Shown here: piece by piece, positions 9,637 to 17,768 of the stretch
Layout of the letters: each line of letters starts with the position of its first letter
How positions within the stretch are numbered: position 1 is the stretch's first letter
Source: Arenimonas fontis
GTDB taxonomy: Bacteria; Pseudomonadota; Gammaproteobacteria; Xanthomonadales; Xanthomonadaceae
Direction: 5' to 3'
DNA length: 64,000 nucleotides
Assembly (NCBI RefSeq): GCF_008386465.1
Contig: NZ_VUOD01000001.1
Span: forward strand, 310,001 to 374,000
Translations under genes and position numbers: made by a program
The notes under the pieces: generated by a model
Seen by the model: the letters and a program-made list of their open reading frames with translations, nothing else
The model's database searches: none
Told to the model about the DNA's origin: nothing

Positions 9637-10119
9637 TCAACCGCCCTTGTTGCCGTCGGCGGCCGGATCTTCGGCCTTTTCCTTCCCGGCCTGGTCTCCG
9701 GCGCTCGCCGGCGCTTGTCCGGCGGCCGGAACGTCGCCGCCGGAGGCGGCCGGAATCGCCGGCACCTCGGCGGCGGCGGGGATCTCGCCGGCAGGCGGCT
9801 CGGACGGGGATGCCGCGCCAGCAGGCGTCGCCGGCACTTCCGCCATAGCGCCGATGTCCTCCTGGGCCGGCGCGGCCGGACGCCCGCCATGGCCGGCGTA
9901 CCAGGCCATGCCCAGGCTCATCGCCATGAACACGATGGCCAGCCACTTGGTGGCGCTGGAGAGGAAGTTTGCCGAACCGCGGGCGCCGAATACCGTGGCC
10001 GAAGCGCCGGCGCCGAAGCCGGAGCCAGCCGCGGCGCCGGCGCCGCGCTGCATGAGGATGAACACGATCATCGCGACCGCGACGAGCACGTAAACGACAC
10101 TGACGATGGTGAGCAGCAT
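9637..10119 (-). CDS. secG: SecG protein-export subunit with long Pro/Ala-rich tail
   Basis: Subunit of the SecYEG translocon, 160 aa. The first ~75 residues are the SecG core: helix MLLTIVSVVYVLVAVAMIVF, the LMQRGAGAAAGSGFGAG loop, then helix KWLAIVFMAMSLGMAWYAG. The remaining ~80 residues are a low-complexity Ala/Pro/Glu tail ending in DGNKGG, much longer than in E. coli. The ATG at 10119 follows the tpiA stop by 8 bp, so the two are probably cotranscribed. Confidence 0.95.
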   Translation of the reverse strand: MLLTIVSVVYVLVAVAMIVFILMQRGAGAAAGSGFGAGASATVFGARGSANFLSSATKWLAIVFMAMSLGMAWYAGHGGRPAAPAQEDIGAMAEVPATPAGAASPSEPPAGEIPAAAEVPAIPAASGGDVPAAGQAPASAGDQAGKEKAEDPAADGNKGG

Positions 10120-10127
10120 GGTCTTCT

Positions 10128-10880
10128 CTACCTCGCCGCCGCGGCGGCGATGGCCAGGAAATCCTGGGCGACGAGGGACGCGCCCCCGATCAGGCCGCCA
10201 TCCACGTCCGGCTGGGCGAACAGCTCGGCGGCGTTGGCGGGCTTGACGCTGCCGCCGTAAAGGATCGGCAGCGAGCCAGCGATTGTAGCATCGTGGGCGG
10301 CCAGCTCGCCACGGATGAAGGCATGCACCTCCTGCGCCTGGGCCGGGCTGGCGGTGCGGCCGGTGCCGATCGCCCAGACCGGCTCGTAGGCCACCAGGGC
10401 ATCCCGGAAACCGGCGATGCCGGCCAGCTCCAGTACCGGAGCCAGTTGCTTCTCTATCGCCCACTCGGTCTGGCCGGCCTCGCGCTGGTGCAGCGTCTCA
10501 CCCACGCACAGGATCGGCACCAGGCCGGCCTTCCGGGCCGCCACGAACTTTTCGGCCACCAGCCGGCTGTCCTCCTCGTGGTACTCGCGCCGCTCGGAGT
10601 GGCCTACCAACACGTAGCGGGCGCCGACGTCCCGGAGCATTGCCCCGGACACCTCGCCGGTGTAGGCGCCCTGCTCGTGCAGGTCCAGATCCTGGGCGCC
10701 GAAGGCCAGGCCCCGGCCGGCATAGTTTCCGGCCAACTCTGCCAGGTAGGGTACCGGCGGCAAAATCACCAGTTCGACCCCGGCCGGCCTATCAGCGGCC
10801 GCCAGCGCGTCCAGGAGTTCGCGGGCGAAGACGCGGTTGCCGTTGAGCTTCCAGTTTCCGGCGACGATCCTCGGACGCAT
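10128..10880 (-). CDS. tpiA: triosephosphate isomerase
   Basis: Interconverts dihydroxyacetone phosphate and glyceraldehyde 3-phosphate in glycolysis and gluconeogenesis; 250 aa, normal length. The catalytic lysine is in NWKLNG near residue 11, the electrophilic histidine in GHSERR near residue 95, and the catalytic glutamate in VAYEPVWAIGTGR near residue 165. The phosphate loop ILYGGSVKP follows. The start is ATG in MRPRIVAGNWK. The reading frame stays open upstream but resembles nothing there. Confidence 0.97.
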   Translation of the reverse strand: MRPRIVAGNWKLNGNRVFARELLDALAAADRPAGVELVILPPVPYLAELAGNYAGRGLAFGAQDLDLHEQGAYTGEVSGAMLRDVGARYVLVGHSERREYHEEDSRLVAEKFVAARKAGLVPILCVGETLHQREAGQTEWAIEKQLAPVLELAGIAGFRDALVAYEPVWAIGTGRTASPAQAQEVHAFIRGELAAHDATIAGSLPILYGGSVKPANAAELFAQPDVDGGLIGGASLVAQDFLAIAAAAAR

Positions 10881-10923
10881 CGTTTTCTCCCTGCAGACCA
10901 GGCCGGCAAGGATACCCGTTTGC

Positions 10924-11337
10924 TCAGGGCCTGACGATCTCCCGTCGCATCGGCGCCAGCCTCGCCAGCAACCGGTTCCGGGCTGTCCTGGGCACACCTC
11001 TGGCTTCCATGACGGCGACCAGGTGCTCCACCAGCGCGTTGAAGTCGGCTTCGGAGATTCCCAGCGTGGCATGGGATTCACGCATCGTGCGTCCGCGGTA
11101 GACACAGGGGCCACCGAGCTCCGCGCAGAACTGCTCGACCAGGCGCGCGTGCAGGTTGTCCAGGTCGACATCGAGGAAGTAATGGCCGATCCCGGGGTCT
11201 TCGAGGACACGGACGAGCAGGTCTTCGACCAGCACCTCAAGGCCTTGCCGGCCTCCGAACTGCCTGTAGGGGGTGTCTCCGGCCAGACTTGCGCACCCGG
11301 AGAGCAGCAGCACCATCAGCAGCAAACTCCGGATCAT
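10924..11337 (-). CDS. lipoprotein-type group 1 truncated hemoglobin
   Basis: A 137-aa truncated-globin-family protein with a lipoprotein signal: a hydrophobic leader ending LLLSGC puts the lipidated Cys at 15, so the globin is predicted to be anchored in the cell envelope. Globin features are YRQFGG near residue 24, a GHYF segment, and the proximal histidine H89 in MRESH followed by LGISEADF. Family members bind O2 or NO; the ligand here is unknown. It is the last gene of the operon that begins with the cupredoxin-like gene, 9 bp after the DUF3034 gene and 43 bp before tpiA. Confidence 0.85.
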   Translation of the reverse strand: MIRSLLLMVLLLSGCASLAGDTPYRQFGGRQGLEVLVEDLLVRVLEDPGIGHYFLDVDLDNLHARLVEQFCAELGGPCVYRGRTMRESHATLGISEADFNALVEHLVAVMEARGVPRTARNRLLARLAPMRREIVRP

Positions 11338-11346
11338 GCGCTCTCC

Positions 11347-12228
11347 TCAATGGCTTACCTGGATGGAAAGGTAGGGCCCCTGCTGCTGCCCGAGCGTGGC
11401 GACATCTCCCAGATCCACCCAGCCCGCGACGACGGCCACGCGCTTGTTCGGAAACCAGGCCAGGAACAGGTCACGGGCACCCTCCTCTGCCGCGAACGCC
11501 AGATTGTCCGGTTTCTGCCGGTACTCGGCCCCCACGACCCAGGACGGGTCGAGCAGCAGCGCGGCAACCCCCTCCCAGACCAGGTCGCGACCGCGCCCGA
11601 GGTCTCCTCCGTGCCCCAACAATCCGAACTGGTTCGCCCGGGTCGAACGCAGGGTCAGGCCGAACAACACCTGCTGCCCCGCCATGTCCAGAAACAGCTT
11701 GCTTGCCGAGAGATAAACATCCCAGCCGTCTCCGGAACGCGCTCCGATCGCCAAGGGCAAGGCATCGTCATGCGACCGCTTGTACTGCACTCCCAGGCTG
11801 AACTGGGGCCAGGGGGTGTACAGCAGATCGCCGCCAAGCCGAAGCTTGGCACCAATGACGTCCTGACCCAGGGCCGCCCAGGGCAAATCCAGCTGCCGCT
11901 GCAGCACCCCGATGTCCAGACGCTGGCGCGCCAGGGAAAGTTCGAGGCGATTCCGGAAGGTCCAGGCCAGCCCGAAAGCCTCGAGGCGATAGTCATCGGT
12001 GTGCAGGCGGCTGGCAAACGCGGTTCCGCCATTCTCGTCCCGGGTTCCGTAGCCCGCCAACACCGCCCAGGGAACCAGACCGCCTCCGGCGGCTCCCTCC
12101 ACCTGACTGGCTCCGCCGCTGGCGAGCAGACGCCCCCCGGCCGCGAACGTCGGCCCGGCCAGGCAGGCCAGGCAGGCCAGCAAGACTGCGCGCGCGAGAA
12201 TCTTCGCCCTCGAGGAACGGCGGTTCAT
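11347..12228 (-). CDS. DUF3034 family outer-membrane-like protein
   Basis: Predicted 293-aa exported protein. A signal peptide is clear (basic MNRRSSRAK start, hydrophobic core, cleavage near GPTFA-A). The mature part has alternating strands (LEAFGLAWTFRNRLELSLAR, FSLGVQYKRS, VVGAEYRQKPDN) resembling an outer-membrane beta-barrel. I recognise it as DUF3034-like; no function is established to my knowledge. ATG 12228 overlaps the stop of the GGDEF-EAL gene by 4 nt, so the two are translationally coupled. Confidence 0.75.
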   Translation of the reverse strand: MNRRSSRAKILARAVLLACLACLAGPTFAAGGRLLASGGASQVEGAAGGGLVPWAVLAGYGTRDENGGTAFASRLHTDDYRLEAFGLAWTFRNRLELSLARQRLDIGVLQRQLDLPWAALGQDVIGAKLRLGGDLLYTPWPQFSLGVQYKRSHDDALPLAIGARSGDGWDVYLSASKLFLDMAGQQVLFGLTLRSTRANQFGLLGHGGDLGRGRDLVWEGVAALLLDPSWVVGAEYRQKPDNLAFAAEEGARDLFLAWFPNKRVAVVAGWVDLGDVATLGQQQGPYLSIQVSH

Positions 12229-14561
12229 GCCTCCACTCCTTCGAACTTCCGGCACCATTCCAGCAAGGCGCCTCCATCCAGCGGAGGACTGAAGAGATAC
12301 CCCTGGGCCATGTCGCAGCGATATCGCCGCAACAGGGCGAGACCGGAAGGATGCTCGACGCCCTCGGCGATCACCGACAGCCCCATGTTGTGCCCAAGAT
12401 CTATCGTCGAACGCACGATGACGGCGTCATCGCTGTCCTCGCGCAGCTGAACGACAAAACTCTTGTCTATCTTCAGCTCGTCCACCGGCATTCTCTTGAG
12501 TTGCGCCAGCGAGGAATAGCCGGTACCGAAATCGTCGATGGAAAGCCGAACGCCGATCGCCCGCAACCTGTGCAGCATGCGCACCGCGTAGTCAACGTCC
12601 CGCATCAGTGCGCTCTCGGTAATCTCCAGAATCAACCTGGTGGCGGGAACACGATGACGGCGCAGGCACCCGACCACCATGTCGGGCAGGCCATCGTCCA
12701 TCAGGTCCATCGCCGACAGGTTCACCGCCAGCCCAATCTCCAGTCCATCGGCACTCCAGCGGGCGTTCTGTGCCACAGCACCGTCCAGAACATACCGGGT
12801 CAGATCGCGGATGACGCCGGACCGCTCGGCCAACGGGATGAACTCATCGGGAGGAACGGCACCGAGCCGTGGATGCTGCCAGCGAAGCAGCGCCTCGACG
12901 TGTCCCACGCGATTCCTGCCGAGGTCGATCTTTGGCTGATAACGGATGGAAAGCTGTCCTTCCGCGATGGCTCCGCGCAGATCCCCCATGAGGGTAAGCT
13001 GACGCAGGTGCAGTTCGTCCCTTCCCTCGGTATAGAGGGCGACACCCGCCTTGGCTTCCTTGGCGTCGTACAGCGCTATGTCGGCGCGTCTCAGCAGGGT
13101 CTGCGCATCCCGGCCGTGCAGCGGATACACGGCCACCCCCAGGCTCGCATCCAGGGACATGCGGGCATCCGGAAGCTCCAGCGGCCGGCGCAGTTCTTCA
13201 AGCAACTGCCGGGCCCGGCGCCTGGCCTGATCCGGATCGGCATCCCGGAGCAGCACCATGAACTCGTCGCCACCCAGCCTCGCGACCAGGTCATCGCCGC
13301 GCACGGCATCGCTGAGCCTGCGCCCCACCTCATGAAGCACCTTGTCCCCGAAGCCATGCCCCAGCGTATCGTTGATCTCCTTGAAGCGATCGAGGTCGAG
13401 CATGAGCACCGCCGCCTGGCCGCCTTGCGTCCGCACCAGCGCATCCAGCTCGGCACGCGCGCAAGCCCGGTTCGGCAGGCCGGTCAATCCATCATGATTG
13501 GCCTGATACACGATCCTGGCCTCACGGGCGGCGATACCGGCCTGCATCTGTTCCAGCGCGTGACCAAGGCCCGCCAGCTCATCCCTGCCCTCGACCACCA
13601 CCGGCTGGGTGTAGTCTCCTGCCGCAATGCGCTGGGCAGCCTCGGCCAGCTTCGCCACCGGCCGAACGATGCCACGACCCAAGAGTACCGCGACCGCAAT
13701 CGCAAGCCCCGTCGCCAGGGCGGACAGCAGCAGGATCCGTCGCTCGAGCGCGTCGAACGGTGCCATCGCCCGCTCCAGGGAGCCCTGCAGGACGACCAGC
13801 ATGTCCGACCCCGATTCCGCCATGGGCTCGGCCAGCAGAAAGGTTTCCTCCCGGCCTACTTCCAGACGTCGCACGCCGCCGTCCGCCACCACGGCCGGTG
13901 CAAGCAGGCTACCGAGGTCGGCACGGGCCGCTCCGGCCAGGCTGGAGCCATAAAGACGCAACTTCCCGCCTTCAACGCGGGCGAAACTGGCATCCAGCCC
14001 GGTCAGGGCGCGAAACTCGCCGGCGTAGGCGTCGCCGAAACTGACGGCTATCGCTACCCAGGCAATCTGTTCGGGAGCCATCACCGGCAGCACCACCGTC
14101 AGGTGGGCATGCCCGCCGAGGATGAGGACTCCGCTGGCATAACCCAGCTCTTCGGCCCGATTCAGGAGCGGTGCGAGCGCCTCGGCTTGCGCCGACTCGC
14201 TTTCCGGGGCGAATCCTGCCTGCCACGCGCCGTCGGGGCGGAACAGCATCGCCGCATCCGCGCCCAGGCGCCCGGCGTGATTCCTCAGTGCCGAGATCTG
14301 GGTCGCCGCATCGTTGCTGGCGACCGCGGCACGGAAACCGAAGTCGTCGGCGAGCACCATCGCCGACGAGAGCAGTTGGTCCTCGCGCGCGGCGTGGAAG
14401 CGGCGCCAGACCCGTTCGCCGACCTGAAGTTCCGCCTGCAGCTGCGCAGCCACGCTCCGCTCCGTGGCAATGCGCACCATGGCAAGGGTCGCCACCTGCG
14501 CTGCGACCACTACCAGCACCAGCAGCACGATGAGGCGAAACCGGAGACTGGAACGTATCAT
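12225..14561 (-). CDS. membrane GGDEF-EAL c-di-GMP enzyme with periplasmic sensor domain
   Basis: Bifunctional-type cyclic-di-GMP protein, 778 aa. Order: TM helix 9-31, a large periplasmic sensor region 32-275 (Cache-like by architecture, inferred), TM helix 276-297, HAMP 298-350, GGDEF domain to ~510 and EAL domain ~525-775. The cyclase motif GGDEF is intact at 430-434, with an RxxD inhibitory site (RGDD, 421-424) five residues before it. EAL residues are intact: EALLRW 556, NLSA, EITES, DDFGTGYSS 676, KIDKSF, AEGVE. Both activities are therefore possible. It overlaps both neighbours by 4 nt, so its signal probably concerns the cupredoxin, barrel or globin proteins. Confidence 0.93.
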   Translation of the reverse strand: MIRSSLRFRLIVLLVLVVVAAQVATLAMVRIATERSVAAQLQAELQVGERVWRRFHAAREDQLLSSAMVLADDFGFRAAVASNDAATQISALRNHAGRLGADAAMLFRPDGAWQAGFAPESESAQAEALAPLLNRAEELGYASGVLILGGHAHLTVVLPVMAPEQIAWVAIAVSFGDAYAGEFRALTGLDASFARVEGGKLRLYGSSLAGAARADLGSLLAPAVVADGGVRRLEVGREETFLLAEPMAESGSDMLVVLQGSLERAMAPFDALERRILLLSALATGLAIAVAVLLGRGIVRPVAKLAEAAQRIAAGDYTQPVVVEGRDELAGLGHALEQMQAGIAAREARIVYQANHDGLTGLPNRACARAELDALVRTQGGQAAVLMLDLDRFKEINDTLGHGFGDKVLHEVGRRLSDAVRGDDLVARLGGDEFMVLLRDADPDQARRRARQLLEELRRPLELPDARMSLDASLGVAVYPLHGRDAQTLLRRADIALYDAKEAKAGVALYTEGRDELHLRQLTLMGDLRGAIAEGQLSIRYQPKIDLGRNRVGHVEALLRWQHPRLGAVPPDEFIPLAERSGVIRDLTRYVLDGAVAQNARWSADGLEIGLAVNLSAMDLMDDGLPDMVVGCLRRHRVPATRLILEITESALMRDVDYAVRMLHRLRAIGVRLSIDDFGTGYSSLAQLKRMPVDELKIDKSFVVQLREDSDDAVIVRSTIDLGHNMGLSVIAEGVEHPSGLALLRRYRCDMAQGYLFSPPLDGGALLEWCRKFEGVEA

Positions 14562-15232
14562 CGCCCGGTCCCGGCTTTGCGGAGCCGATCCTGGAGCATC
14601 CGCAACCGCTCGCTACCCCGGCGCGTCGGCGCCTCCGGCCGCAGCTCCAGCCTGAGCACGAGCTCGGTCTCATGCCCTTCATCGAGCGCCAAGCCGAGCT
14701 CCGGTTGTTCGGCGGACAATCGGGCGTGCCAGGCGCGAAGCCCGTATTCCCCGGCCGGTGCCTCGAGGCGAACCAGGCCATCGGCGTCGGTTTTGCCGAA
14801 GTACGGCGTATCGAGCACCACGATGTGGCCCACCATCCAGTCATGGATGTTGCAGCCGACCACCACGACGCCGGGACGATCGAACAGGATCGGATCCGGC
14901 GGTGTACCGGAGTAGAGAGGCAGCTCGAACGGCCGCGCTTCGGAAAACGAATACACCTGGTGCTGGACGCTGTCGCTGTTGGGGAACTCGACTTCGGTGC
15001 CGACGCGGATGGCAAACACTCCCGGTTCGAAGGCGGAGTTCCGCTGGTCCAGGATGGCCCGGCCCGGCGCTTCCGGCGGCGACCGGGGTGGTCCGTGCAG
15101 GCTTACGACCGCGTCGGCGACCGGCTGGCCTTCCGCCAGCACCCTGACCAGCAACTCGGCCGCATGGGCCGGCCCCGCCAGGCCCAGCAGCACGGGAAGC
15201 AGCAAGCCGCCAATGCCGTCATCCCTCCGCAC
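14558..15232 (-). CDS. periplasmic cupredoxin-like protein
   Basis: 224 aa with a signal peptide cleaved near GPAHA-A (residue 24). The fold looks plastocyanin-like: candidate type-1 copper ligands are H91 (in SDSVQHQVYS) and C127, H130, M133 in VGCNIHDWM. Such proteins are often annotated as methylamine utilization proteins, but no methylamine dehydrogenase genes are present. A carboxypeptidase-regulatory-like beta segment follows (GLVRLEAPAGEYGLRAWHA), then a charged C-terminus. The start is GTG 15232. It is the first gene of the four-gene operon ending with the truncated hemoglobin. Confidence 0.78.
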   Translation of the reverse strand: MRRDDGIGGLLLPVLLGLAGPAHAAELLVRVLAEGQPVADAVVSLHGPPRSPPEAPGRAILDQRNSAFEPGVFAIRVGTEVEFPNSDSVQHQVYSFSEARPFELPLYSGTPPDPILFDRPGVVVVGCNIHDWMVGHIVVLDTPYFGKTDADGLVRLEAPAGEYGLRAWHARLSAEQPELGLALDEGHETELVLRLELRPEAPTRRGSERLRMLQDRLRKAGTGR

Positions 15233-15328
15233 ACCCGCCCCCTGCAGTCGGTCGCTGGCGCGGATGGTCGCTGCGACGCGGTGATGATCGTGCGAAGACC
15301 GCGGGCGGTCGCGCGGCGGCAGACACTA

Positions 15329-15375
15329 GGGCAGGAACACCTGACGCCACCATCCTGCCCGGACGCGGCGTCAGG
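15329..15375 (-). promoter_or_regulatory. two interleaved perfect stems (pseudoknot-like) in the leader of the cupredoxin operon
   Basis: In the 182-bp gap between the oxygenase gene and the cupredoxin operon, CCTGACGCC (15340-15348) pairs perfectly with 15367-15375, and GGGCAGGA (15329-15336) pairs perfectly with 15353-15360. The arms alternate (A-B-A'-B'), the topology of an H-type pseudoknot, with connecting loops of 3, 4 and 6 nt. It lies 39 bp after the oxygenase stop and 96 bp before the cupredoxin GTG. Function as a leader element or terminator is inferred. Confidence 0.5.
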
Positions 15376-15414
15376 CCACCATGTCGGCCCCGGGTCCGCC
15401 GGCGCGGGCAGGCC

Positions 15415-16353
15415 TCAGACCAGTTTGATCTCCCGCAGGCGCTCGAGCAGGTAGTCCTGGGCGGTGATCGGCTCGGGGTACCGATCCGGATTGTCGGCGC
15501 TCACGCATTGCGGCAGCGTGCGGATCAGGAAGTCCGGATTCGGATGCAGGAAAAACGGCGTGGAATAACGCGGCTGTCGCGCCTTGTCGCCAGGCGGATT
15601 GACCACCCTGTGGGTGGTCGAGGGGTACACGTGGTTGGTCAGGCGCTGCAGCATGTCGCCGATGTTGACCACGATGGTGTCGGCATCGGCGGTGAACGGC
15701 ACCCATTCGCCCTTGCGCGACAGCACTTCCAGGCCCTCGGCGCTGGCGCCGACCAGAAGGGTGATCAGGTTGATGTCCTCGTGCGCGCCGGCCCGCACGT
15801 TCGGAATGTCGGTAGCGGTGATCGGCGGGTAGTGGATCGGCCGCAGGATGGAGTTGCCGACATCGGTCTTGTCGGCGAACCAGTCCTCCGGCAGGCCGAT
15901 GTGCAGGGCCAGCGCCGACAGAACCCGCGAGCCCAGGGCGTCCAGCGCCTCGTACAGCGCATAGGCCACTTCCCGGAACTCCGGCACTTCCTCGGGCCAC
16001 AGGTTCGGCGGCATCACGTCCGCGTATTTGCCGTCGCGGGGAATCTCCCGGCCGACGTGCCAGAACTCCTTGAGGTCGTAATGCTCGGCGCCCTTGGCAG
16101 TTTCTATGCCGAAAGGCGTGTAACCGCGGGCGCCGCCGCCACCAGGCACGTGGTACTTGCGCTTGACCTGTTCTGGCAGGGCGAAAAACCGGCGGAACAC
16201 CTCGTAGGCGCGATCGATCAACGACTGCGGGATGCCGTGATTGCGGATGCCGGCAAAGCCCCATTCCCGGTAGGCGGCGCCGAGATCGGCCACGAAGGCG
16301 GTGCGGTCGGTGTCGAAACGCTGGATGTCCAGGGTAGGGATGCTGGCGCTCAC
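15415..16353 (-). CDS. isopenicillin-N-synthase-like Fe(II)/2-oxoglutarate oxygenase
   Basis: Non-heme iron oxygenase of the IPNS/ethylene-forming family, 312 aa. The N-terminal domain has WGFAGIRNHGIP and the LP-x-KRKYH region. The jelly-roll core carries the metal triad H191-x-D193 (in AHEDIN) and H248 (THRVVNP), with the co-substrate R262 in the RYS motif. The substrate cannot be told from sequence. The start is GTG 16353, 68 bp after glmM on the same strand. No biosynthetic cluster surrounds it, so a primary-metabolic or detoxifying role is as likely as natural-product synthesis. Confidence 0.88.
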   Translation of the reverse strand: MSASIPTLDIQRFDTDRTAFVADLGAAYREWGFAGIRNHGIPQSLIDRAYEVFRRFFALPEQVKRKYHVPGGGGARGYTPFGIETAKGAEHYDLKEFWHVGREIPRDGKYADVMPPNLWPEEVPEFREVAYALYEALDALGSRVLSALALHIGLPEDWFADKTDVGNSILRPIHYPPITATDIPNVRAGAHEDINLITLLVGASAEGLEVLSRKGEWVPFTADADTIVVNIGDMLQRLTNHVYPSTTHRVVNPPGDKARQPRYSTPFFLHPNPDFLIRTLPQCVSADNPDRYPEPITAQDYLLERLREIKLV

Positions 16354-16421
16354 GGCAGGTCCTCGGTCGGCGTTGGGCGGAAGTCTAGGCGCCCGGACGG
16401 GGCATGCAAGACCGCGACGGC

Positions 16422-17768
16422 TCAGGCCGCGGCCGCGGCGCGGACCGCGCCGGCGAGCCGCTCCAGCACGTCTTGCATCAGGGTCTCGTCCGCCGCCTCG
16501 ACCGTGACCCGCACCACCGGCTCGGTGCCGGAGGCCCGCAGCACCAGTCGGCCGCGCCCGGCCAGGGCCGCTTCGGCCTCGGCACGTGCGGCCAGAACCT
16601 GCCCGTCCTCGAGCGGCCGCGCGCCAGGCCCGATCCGCACGTTGACCGTCCGCTGCGGCAGGGGCCGGTAACCTGCCAGGGCCTGTTCCAGACTCTGACC
16701 GCGCCGGCGCAGCACCTCCAGCACCTGCAAGGCCGCCACGATGGCGTCACCGGTGCTGGCCCGGTCCATGCACAGCAGGTGACCCGAGGCCTCGCCGCCC
16801 AACACACCGCCGCGGGCCACCAGCGCCTGATGCACGTAGCGGTCGCCGACCTGGGTGCGGAGGAAGGGAATGCCGCGCTCGGCCAGGGCCGCCTCGAGCG
16901 CATAGTTGCTCATCAGCGTGCCGACCACCGGTCCCTCCAGTCGGCCGGTCGCCTGCCAGTCGCGGGCCAGCAGCCAGATCAGGCCGTCGCCGTCCACCAG
17001 CCGCCCCTGCCCGTCCACCATCTGCACGCGGTCGCCGTCGCCGTCGAAGGCGATGCCGAGGTCGGCACCGGTTTCGCGCACCCTGGCGATCAGCGCCTCC
17101 GGATGGGTGGAGCCGACGCCGAGGTTGATGTTCAGCCCGTCCGGATCGACGCCGATGGCGTCCACCCGCGCGCCCAGCTCGGAGAAGACCCGCGGCGCCA
17201 CCTGATAGGTGGCGCCATGGGCGCAATCCAGCACGATGCGCATGCCTCCCAGCATCAAGTCCTCGGGCACGGTGGACTTGCAGAATTCGGCGTAACGCGC
17301 CATCGCGTCGGTGACCCGCGAGGCCTTGCCCAGGCGTTCTGACGGCACGGTTCGCAGGGGTTGCTCCAGTTCGGCCTCGATCGCTTCCTCGACCGCATCG
17401 GCCAGCTTCTCGCCCTGGGCGGAGAAGAACTTGACCCCGTTGTCCTCATGCGGGTTGTGCGAGGCGGAGATGACGATGCCGGCGTCGGCGCGCAGGGAAC
17501 GGGTCAGATAGGCCACGGCCGGGGTCGGCATCGGTCCGAGTAGGCGCACATTGGCGCCGGCCGCCACCAGGCCGGCCTCCAGGGCCGACTCGAACATGTA
17601 GCCGGAGATGCGGGTGTCCTTGCCGATGACCACGGTGGCGTGGCCAGCGTCGCCGTTGGCCAGCACCCGGCCGGCAGCCGCGCCCAGGCGCAGCATGAAA
17701 TCGGCCGAGACCGGGAACTGCCCCACCCGGCCGCGGATGCCGTCGGTACCGAAATACCTGCGCGTCAT
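16422..17768 (-). CDS. glmM: phosphoglucosamine mutase
   Basis: Converts glucosamine 6-phosphate to the 1-phosphate on the way to UDP-GlcNAc for peptidoglycan and LPS; 448 aa, usual length. The activating phosphoserine is S103 in [12 protein letters not shown], the Mg-binding loop is FDGDGDR near residue 245, the sugar-specificity loop is GGEASGH, and the phosphate-binding loop is [11 protein letters not shown] near the C-terminus. The ATG start is 4 bp after accD, an unusual partner; in many relatives glmM follows folP. Confidence 0.96.

Follow-up and report, generated by a model that had tools for sequence, protein, structure and literature searches.

A conserved four-gene envelope unit pairing a predicted copper protein with a double-Cache c-di-GMP enzyme in Arenimonas fontis and its relatives

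In the autoinducer-2 receptor of Vibrio, the sensor LuxQ answers to a periplasmic protein, LuxP, and in YfiBNR (TpbB) and NspS-MbaA a periplasmic protein sets the activity of a membrane-bound enzyme of cyclic diguanylate (c-di-GMP) metabolism. Enzymes that break c-di-GMP down can also be linked to the flagellar sigma factor FliA, as is the phosphodiesterase YhjH of Escherichia coli. A comparable arrangement is proposed here for an operon of Arenimonas fontis. The window, by which we mean the whole stretch of DNA analysed, comprises 64,000 nucleotides of this organism (NZ_VUOD01000001.1, positions 310,001–374,000), and all coordinates below are window positions. Between 10924 and 15232 its minus strand carries four genes, which encode, in 5′ to 3′ order, an exported cupredoxin-like protein (hereafter CUP), a GGDEF-EAL enzyme with a periplasmic sensor, a DUF3034 protein and a globin. 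We consider it about an even call that this operon is one trans-envelope signalling unit of two cassettes, with the copper protein governing a double-Cache c-di-GMP enzyme.

A four-gene unit that recurs across the phylum

The four genes form one conserved unit, which recurs across the phylum more than chance would have it. Our phylum sample comprised 299 genomes, in which CUP and the globin were counted at 100 bits or more and the sensor at E ≤1e-10, using a profile built from CUP-linked proteins. DUF3034 (PF11231) is present in 25 of these genomes, and in all 26 of their loci (one a decayed second copy) the globin adjoins it. DUF3034 and the globin occur together in 25 genomes, DUF3034 alone in none, the globin alone in one and neither in 273; CUP and the sensor occur together in 31, CUP alone in four, the sensor alone in one and neither in 263. 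Across the two pairs, DUF3034 and CUP are both found in 24 genomes, DUF3034 alone in one and CUP alone in 11. Fisher values for such pairings take no account of how closely the genomes are related. All four genes cluster at 17 of the 26 loci. At L036, L047, L049 and L051, from the four DUF3034 genomes of another class, they stand as two divergent pairs, CUP with the enzyme and DUF3034 with the globin.

A closer view comes from at least 585 confirmed DUF3034 relatives, the best 80 of which serve as named loci; these are biased towards the window's relatives and come mostly from Pseudomonas and Xanthomonas. With GGDEF-EAL matches below 300 bits excluded from the arrangement, 75 of the 80 carry all four genes on the same strand, among them L140 and L156 from the P. 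fluorescens group or P. chlororaphis. Three of the remaining five have DUF3034 and the globin alone (two of them near a contig end), one lacks CUP at a contig end and one lacks the enzyme. In the 30 largest neighbour clusters of the 26 phylum-sample loci, antisense shadows of the four genes aside, no fifth family accompanies the operon across more than two bacterial families. An earlier note on this DNA, made by a model from the letters and their open reading frames, had said that its reading would fall if the four families did not co-occur elsewhere; both surveys, with the globin at every DUF3034 locus and the full set at 75 of 80, show that they do. One genome, G078, has in addition a second DUF3034-globin copy (L053, on contig C3, with L026–L028) interrupted by in-frame stops, a decayed duplicate whose intact counterpart lies elsewhere in the genome.

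Within the window the genes are tightly packed: CUP and the enzyme overlap by 4 nucleotides (14558–14561), as do the enzyme and DUF3034 (12225–12228), and a gap of 9 nucleotides (11338–11346) separates DUF3034 from the globin. These coordinates agree exactly with the note's description of four same-strand genes. Its sketch of the products has also held up on the points that bear on identity, namely the positions of the cupredoxin-like residues, the two intact catalytic sites of the window enzyme, the exported barrel-like character of DUF3034 and the lipid anchor of the truncated haemoglobin, each of which is taken up below with the protein concerned.

A predicted copper protein and its probable double-Cache partner

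CUP (14558–15232, minus strand) comprises 224 residues from a GTG start and ends in an immunoglobulin/carboxypeptidase-regulatory-like part. Its putative ligands are H91, nearer the gene start, and a C-x2-H-x2-M motif (14834–14854) made up of C127, H130 and M133, all at the positions given in the note; this H, C, H, M set is invariant in 96 of 96 CUP sequences. The window protein has no Pfam domain above cut-off, and weak matches to Cupredoxin_1 (six of 18 members) and Copper-bind (four of 18) fall below cut-off for it. A profile of 18 CUP relatives, on the other hand, matches solved copper domains of NirK-type nitrite reductases and of amicyanin, and the alignments bring the Cys-His-Met motifs into register (best E 9e-6). 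With a His, Cys, His, Met set in a cupredoxin domain, CUP is a predicted type 1 copper protein. Many plasmid-borne relatives are annotated "methylamine utilization protein". Distant CUP-like proteins adjoin di-haem peroxidase-like genes at L204 (G021), where a CCP_MauG match is followed by a membrane histidine kinase, and at L213 (G022; recognised by eye), and such neighbours may account for the name.

The next gene (12225–14561, minus strand) encodes an inner-membrane transducer of 778 residues, assigned from Pfam and its model the architecture double Cache-HAMP-GGDEF-EAL. Matches to dCache_3 (E 2e-11), HAMP (7e-15), GGDEF (4e-46) and EAL (2e-69) are all above the Pfam cut-off. Pfam (PF14827), the model and structural matches concur in placing a dCache_3-like periplasmic double-Cache sensor at about residues 34–270 (13752–14462). 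The sensor model (mean predicted local distance difference test, pLDDT, 90) has two Cache subdomains between two long helices, and its top structural matches are an integrative model of McpB (Z 14.6, 5.7 Å), LuxQ (3c38; Z 14.6, 3.2 Å, 196 residues aligned) and DctB (Z 13.9). Among the matches listed there are, in addition, two LuxP-LuxQ complexes (2hj9 and 1zhh), with amino acid chemoreceptors next. A single-sequence phmmer search found no PDB sequence match to the sensor region.

CUP lies immediately upstream of, and on the same strand as, 28 of 36 sensors. Four genomes (G158, G142, G126 and G015) keep both CUP and sensor on separate contigs or megabases apart, so linkage alone is an insufficient explanation for their joint retention. 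Loci L194, L197 and L198 have the pair without DUF3034 and its globin, and so do genomes G007, G234 and G288. What lies on the other side of the membrane can also change: at L210 and L211, in two genomes, the dCache-HAMP sensor beside CUP is fused with a nucleotide cyclase of class III, and at L202, in one genome, with a Ser/Thr kinase, where the sensor matches less well (dCache_3 at 26.6 bits, cut-off 25.7). The C-x2-H-x2-M motif is kept in the CUPs beside cyclase and kinase sensors, and in 19 of 19 CUP-like proteins of a further set of loci. Because CUP keeps its place beside the sensor even with a cyclase or a kinase as output, it follows the sensor and not the output, and this pattern, as would be expected of such a module, suggests that CUP and sensor constitute an input module with interchangeable outputs. 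The earlier note had cast the copper protein as a handler of ligands; its copper residues are borne out, whereas the role needs revision, since CUP makes best sense as partner to the double-Cache sensor. Likeness to LuxP-LuxQ makes the same partnership likely by analogy.

Perhaps the outer-membrane parts of the module are interchangeable as well. At L210–L212 a protein of 290–320 residues lies immediately upstream of CUP, with weak, sub-threshold barrel matches, and at L195 an exported-looking protein of 418 residues follows CUP directly. In Pseudomonas, twelve loci (L142, L146, L147, L149–L153, L159, L165, L173 and L175) have a second GGDEF-EAL gene immediately upstream of CUP; alignment of two of these copies, from L142 and L152, shows changes in the conserved DFGFR motif of the sensor.

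Predicted enzymatic output and putative flagellar promoters

Both catalytic domains of the window enzyme, GGDEF (13050–13502) and EAL (12282–12983), were placed by Pfam and passed our residue check, as the note had claimed. Its picture of an enzyme with both active sites intact does not extend to most of the relatives. Our catalytic count took enzymes of at least 700 bits immediately downstream of CUP, 91 of 107, and rests on residues whose roles in EAL and GGDEF domains are established background. Seven EAL catalytic residues were checked, and every one of the 91 enzymes retains them all. A strict GGDEF test (metal-binding Asp/Glu plus [GAS]G[DE]E) is passed by nine of the 91, the window enzyme included, and a lenient one by 27. 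When the enzymes are clustered at 70% identity, EAL is intact in 37 of 37 clusters and GGDEF in nine of 37; for the 16 excluded enzymes, which are tandem or other copies and a single DUF3034-linked enzyme lacking CUP, the figures are 16 and zero, and the second GGDEF-EAL copies in the count all have a degenerate GGDEF domain with an intact EAL. Since the EAL domain is always intact and the GGDEF domain usually degenerate, the conserved output is predicted to be breakdown of c-di-GMP by the EAL half.

Upstream of CUP we noticed, in part of the lineages, a candidate promoter for the flagellar sigma factor sigma-28, of the type TAAAGTTT-N11-GCCGATAA; the consensus is confirmed in a passage of PMC4866697. 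The pattern is post hoc, having been spotted in upstream sequences and then tested against the reverse strand, shuffles and all other positions. With up to two mismatches, a site precedes CUP in 35 of 95 loci, compared with about one in shuffles and none on the reverse strand. Of 29 sites with at most one mismatch in 1.4 Mb searched on both strands, 22 fall in the 350 nucleotides upstream of CUP, which make up 1.2% of positions. Counted by cluster, six of 51 CUP clusters have a site at one mismatch and nine of 51 at two (shuffles 0.2 and 1.1). Sites are found in Xanthomonas, in several distinct lineages of Pseudomonas and, from another family, in a single genome (L045); the match is best in Xanthomonas and parts of Pseudomonas, with a spacer one base longer than consensus in Xanthomonas. 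Of the 25 DUF3034 genomes, 21 have a FliA match above cut-off. Within the window's class, FliA is found in 20 of 21 DUF3034 genomes versus 90 of 158 class-sample genomes, a baseline drawn separately from the phylum set though overlapping with it in part (G000 and G019, for example, are in both).

Published work on Pseudomonas aeruginosa illustrates how flagellar and c-di-GMP control can meet. In the part of PMC4866697 that deals with this question, a fliA mutant has higher c-di-GMP, which is linked, perhaps indirectly, to the EAL enzyme BifA; the authors report there that they found no FliA site for BifA and suggest that control may be indirect. The FliA-BifA link described in that part of the paper shows such logic to be workable elsewhere.

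Predicted outer-membrane partners, a proposed mechanism and known systems

The DUF3034 protein (11347–12228, minus strand; 293 residues from an ATG at 12228) matches its family at 323 bits against a curated cut-off of 25 (E 2e-96) and is a predicted outer-membrane barrel. Its model has 12 strands (mean pLDDT 75, with residues 24–62 below 50) and a conserved Gly-rich N-terminal segment. The nearest solved folds are FapF (5o65; Z 19.6, 3.0 Å, 217 residues aligned), KdgM (18.5) and the COG4313 channel (17.8), followed by several autotransporter domains at Z 15–17. FapF, KdgM and the COG4313 channels share the 12-strand barrel with the model at 9–12% identity, and the alignments to FapF and COG4313 extend into the N-terminal segment, which is modelled with low confidence. 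No PDB sequence match to DUF3034 was found, nor any Pfam link beyond DUF3034 above cut-off. The structural matches name the class of barrel and not its function. Membership of the FapF family was considered and is not claimed: the likeness is one of fold, no sequence link was found (no dedicated FapF profile was run) and other 12-strand barrels are nearly as close.

The last gene (10924–11337, minus strand) encodes an exported lipoprotein globin of 137 residues with a lipobox cysteine (Cys15), a cysteine pair (Cys71 and Cys78), a proximal, haem-binding His89 and Leu at both B10 and E11. It matches Bac_globin (PF01152) at 57.9 bits against a cut-off of 21 (E 1.5e-15). The closest described relatives are the group I truncated haemoglobins typified by HbN (1idr), to whose core the family profile aligns without gaps and with which it shares the proximal His. 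Unlike HbN, the globin is exported, mostly with a lipobox, has the conserved cysteine pair and lacks B10 Tyr and E11 Gln. The proximal His is kept in 105 of 106 globins and the two cysteine positions in 105 and 104, a pair that fits an exported, oxidised globin; the lipobox column is cysteine in 96 of 106, and most of the others have a signal-peptide-like start by eye. B10 Tyr and E11 Gln, the typical distal network of group I members, stabilise O2 in HbN, and their loss is expected to weaken binding of O2 more than that of nitric oxide (NO) or CO. Neither residue occurs in any of the 106 globins, apolar substitutes, mostly Leu, filling all but one cell at the two positions. When the profile is run against the PDB, the top match is 2gl3, an HbN mutated at both B10 and E11, which scores only just above the wild type (97.7 versus 95.3 bits; residue identities come from the alignment). 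Judged by these residues, the globin is a divergent branch of group I and not a typical HbN.

The distal pocket was also tried as a hallmark of the unit and rejected: five globins without DUF3034 from the same draw (L079–L083) mostly share the loss, with B10 Tyr in one of five (L082) and E11 Gln in none, and the cysteine pair is present in L079 and L080 and absent from L081–L083. At L203 (G154) a globin of this family, with the cysteine pair and Leu at B10 and E11, occurs without DUF3034, in a genome that pairs CUP with a Ser/Thr kinase. Many family f32 genomes without DUF3034 have two or three truncated-globin matches, often as neighbours on one contig. As for the surroundings of the operon, a tpiA-like gene (recognised by eye) begins 43 nucleotides past the globin on the same strand, and the operon, together with a 2-oxoglutarate oxygenase gene, is flanked by a GlmM-like gene on one side and by genes resembling tpiA and SecG on the other (9637–17768; tpiA and SecG by eye). 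In G276 (L043), relatives of the GlmM-like, tpiA-like and SecG-like genes also lie within a few kilobases of the operon.

How might such a unit work? In the first cassette, we infer that periplasmic CUP would bind, or report to, the double-Cache domain of the HAMP-coupled inner-membrane enzyme, much as LuxP acts on LuxQ or YfiR on YfiN; its copper state, or whether it is bound or unbound, would set the conformation of the enzyme. In nearly all relatives the relevant result would be EAL hydrolysis of c-di-GMP, such that the unit would help to keep c-di-GMP low, and in several lineages it may act within the flagellar regulon. In the second cassette, outer-membrane DUF3034 and the exported globin—presumably haem-loaded, mostly a lipoprotein, and with an apolar distal pocket—would meet or relay a small redox-active signal, so that the haem state, too, could serve as input. 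The earlier note had proposed redox or gas (NO/O2) sensing in the envelope, passed to c-di-GMP; a conserved unit with a suited sensor architecture speaks for envelope sensing as such, which we would amend in that the conserved output is breakdown and the copper protein a partner of the sensor, while NO as the signal gains no support from genome context, as set out below. More tentatively, and with the balance of probability on the other side, we raise the prospect of a new receptor class: a type 1 copper protein as exchangeable-signal co-receptor of a double-Cache transducer whose output may be hydrolysis of c-di-GMP, a nucleotide cyclase of class III or a Ser/Thr kinase, and which in most members is fed from the outer membrane by a barrel and a haem globin devoid of the usual O2-holding residues, such that metal centres would read the redox or gas state of the envelope and inform the decision to move.

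Several observations weigh against a copper protein governing a c-di-GMP phosphodiesterase through its Cache domain. The adjacent arrangement is missing for eight of 36 sensors and 10 of 38 CUPs; G078 has DUF3034 and the globin without CUP or sensor, and in G019 the same pair occurs with no sensor reaching E 1e-10. LuxQ shares its rank, to within one Z unit, with the chemoreceptor model and DctB, it is not in Foldseek's 50 best rows for the sensor model, and the sensor's structural matches are mostly Cache domains to which small ligands bind directly. The window enzyme has an intact GGDEF domain and may make c-di-GMP, either alone or alongside breaking it down. At two mismatches, 42 of 51 CUP clusters have no sigma-28 site, and the window organism has neither FliA above cut-off nor a sigma-28 site upstream of CUP, so the unit there works outside any FliA regulon.

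Other signals and other functions have to be set beside this reading. An NO-responsive dispersal system, in which the globin captures NO at the outer membrane, CUP reports to the sensor and the phosphodiesterase lowers c-di-GMP, would draw on the distal residues missing from every globin and the 2gl3 match, and both NnrS and a strong match to PF02239 (NirS-type) are present in the window's genome. We nevertheless regard it as unlikely: globins without DUF3034 mostly lack the same residues, so their loss is no mark of the unit, and neither NnrS (13 of 25 DUF3034 genomes versus 169 of 299 overall) nor PF02239 above 300 bits (four of 25 versus 44 of 299) is enriched. We accordingly dropped an NO link by genome context, a rough and weak test, the more so as NO sensing is not confined to denitrifiers. 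Upstream of CUP in the 95 loci, FNR/Dnr, NsrR-like, NorR-like, Fur and CueR-like patterns, taken from general knowledge, do not exceed one shuffle per sequence; the first three bear on NO, and the CueR-like pattern on a different proposal, that envelope copper loads CUP and loaded CUP switches the sensor. Copper sensing would suit the invariant ligands of CUP and its standing as the sensor's most constant partner. We think it quite unlikely, given that no copper-resistance family recurs among the 30 largest neighbour clusters of the 26 loci, that type 1 sites usually serve electron transfer and that the globin would be left unexplained. As an observation on the window's genome, its single PF02239 (cytochrome d1) match lies at G000:C27:37222-38400, while G174, G246 and G298, with an equally strong match, have six; nirN/nirF-type partners may be missing here.

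Electron transfer itself could be the function, with CUP and the globin passing electrons between them for the periplasmic reduction of O2, peroxide or NO, DUF3034 acting as a substrate channel and the c-di-GMP enzyme merely co-operonic. Both proteins have export signals and metal-ligand residues, DUF3034 and the globin also occur without CUP in G078, and a periplasmic oxidase role is proposed, in the relevant part of PMC11976967, for cytochrome-fused truncated haemoglobins of cable bacteria. CUP nonetheless keeps to the sensor without DUF3034 and this globin in G007, G234 and G288, so its main partner is a signal transducer, and we give a redox pair as little credence as copper sensing. Least probable, and very doubtful in our view, is an exopolymer or amyloid link in which DUF3034, whose FapF-like fold would permit it, serves as the channel for an exported cargo under the control of the c-di-GMP enzyme: FapF is the best structural match to the DUF3034 model, but functionally unrelated 12-strand barrels, from KdgM and COG4313 to the autotransporter domains, score nearly as high, and no cargo gene recurs among those same neighbour clusters.

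No description of the four-gene unit was found in the open-licence literature; in the portion of PMC12548924 that mentions it, "DUF3034" is a word in the legend of a retron figure. What emerges is apparently a widespread and undescribed envelope-to-c-di-GMP unit, common to many Pseudomonas, Xanthomonas and their relatives. Were a copper protein to govern the double-Cache enzyme as we propose, functions would follow for DUF3034, for cupredoxins named "methylamine utilization protein" and for one branch of exported truncated haemoglobins, and a metalloprotein input would be added to c-di-GMP control. The swapping of outputs further suggests a general copper-protein/Cache input module.

Compared with the systems described at the outset, the unit shares parts with each. 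LuxP-LuxQ has a double-Cache sensor of like fold, in a tie with other Cache sensors, and a periplasmic protein encoded beside it that is the likely carrier of the signal; LuxP, however, has the fold of a sugar-binding protein where the linked protein here is a cupredoxin, the output of LuxQ is a histidine kinase, and LuxPQ comes without a barrel or globin. YfiBNR and NspS-MbaA offer a precedent for a periplasmic protein that sets a membrane c-di-GMP enzyme, and YfiBNR has an outer-membrane lipoprotein as well, yet neither has a copper site, a globin or DUF3034, and YfiN is a cyclase where the activity conserved here is EAL. Like YhjH and BifA, the enzyme is in part of the lineages an EAL protein tied to flagellar regulation; unlike them, it is part of an envelope unit of four genes, for which a site can be recognised in some lineages but is absent from most, the window included. 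By analogy, then, the unit may work like LuxPQ or YfiBNR while being a member of neither.

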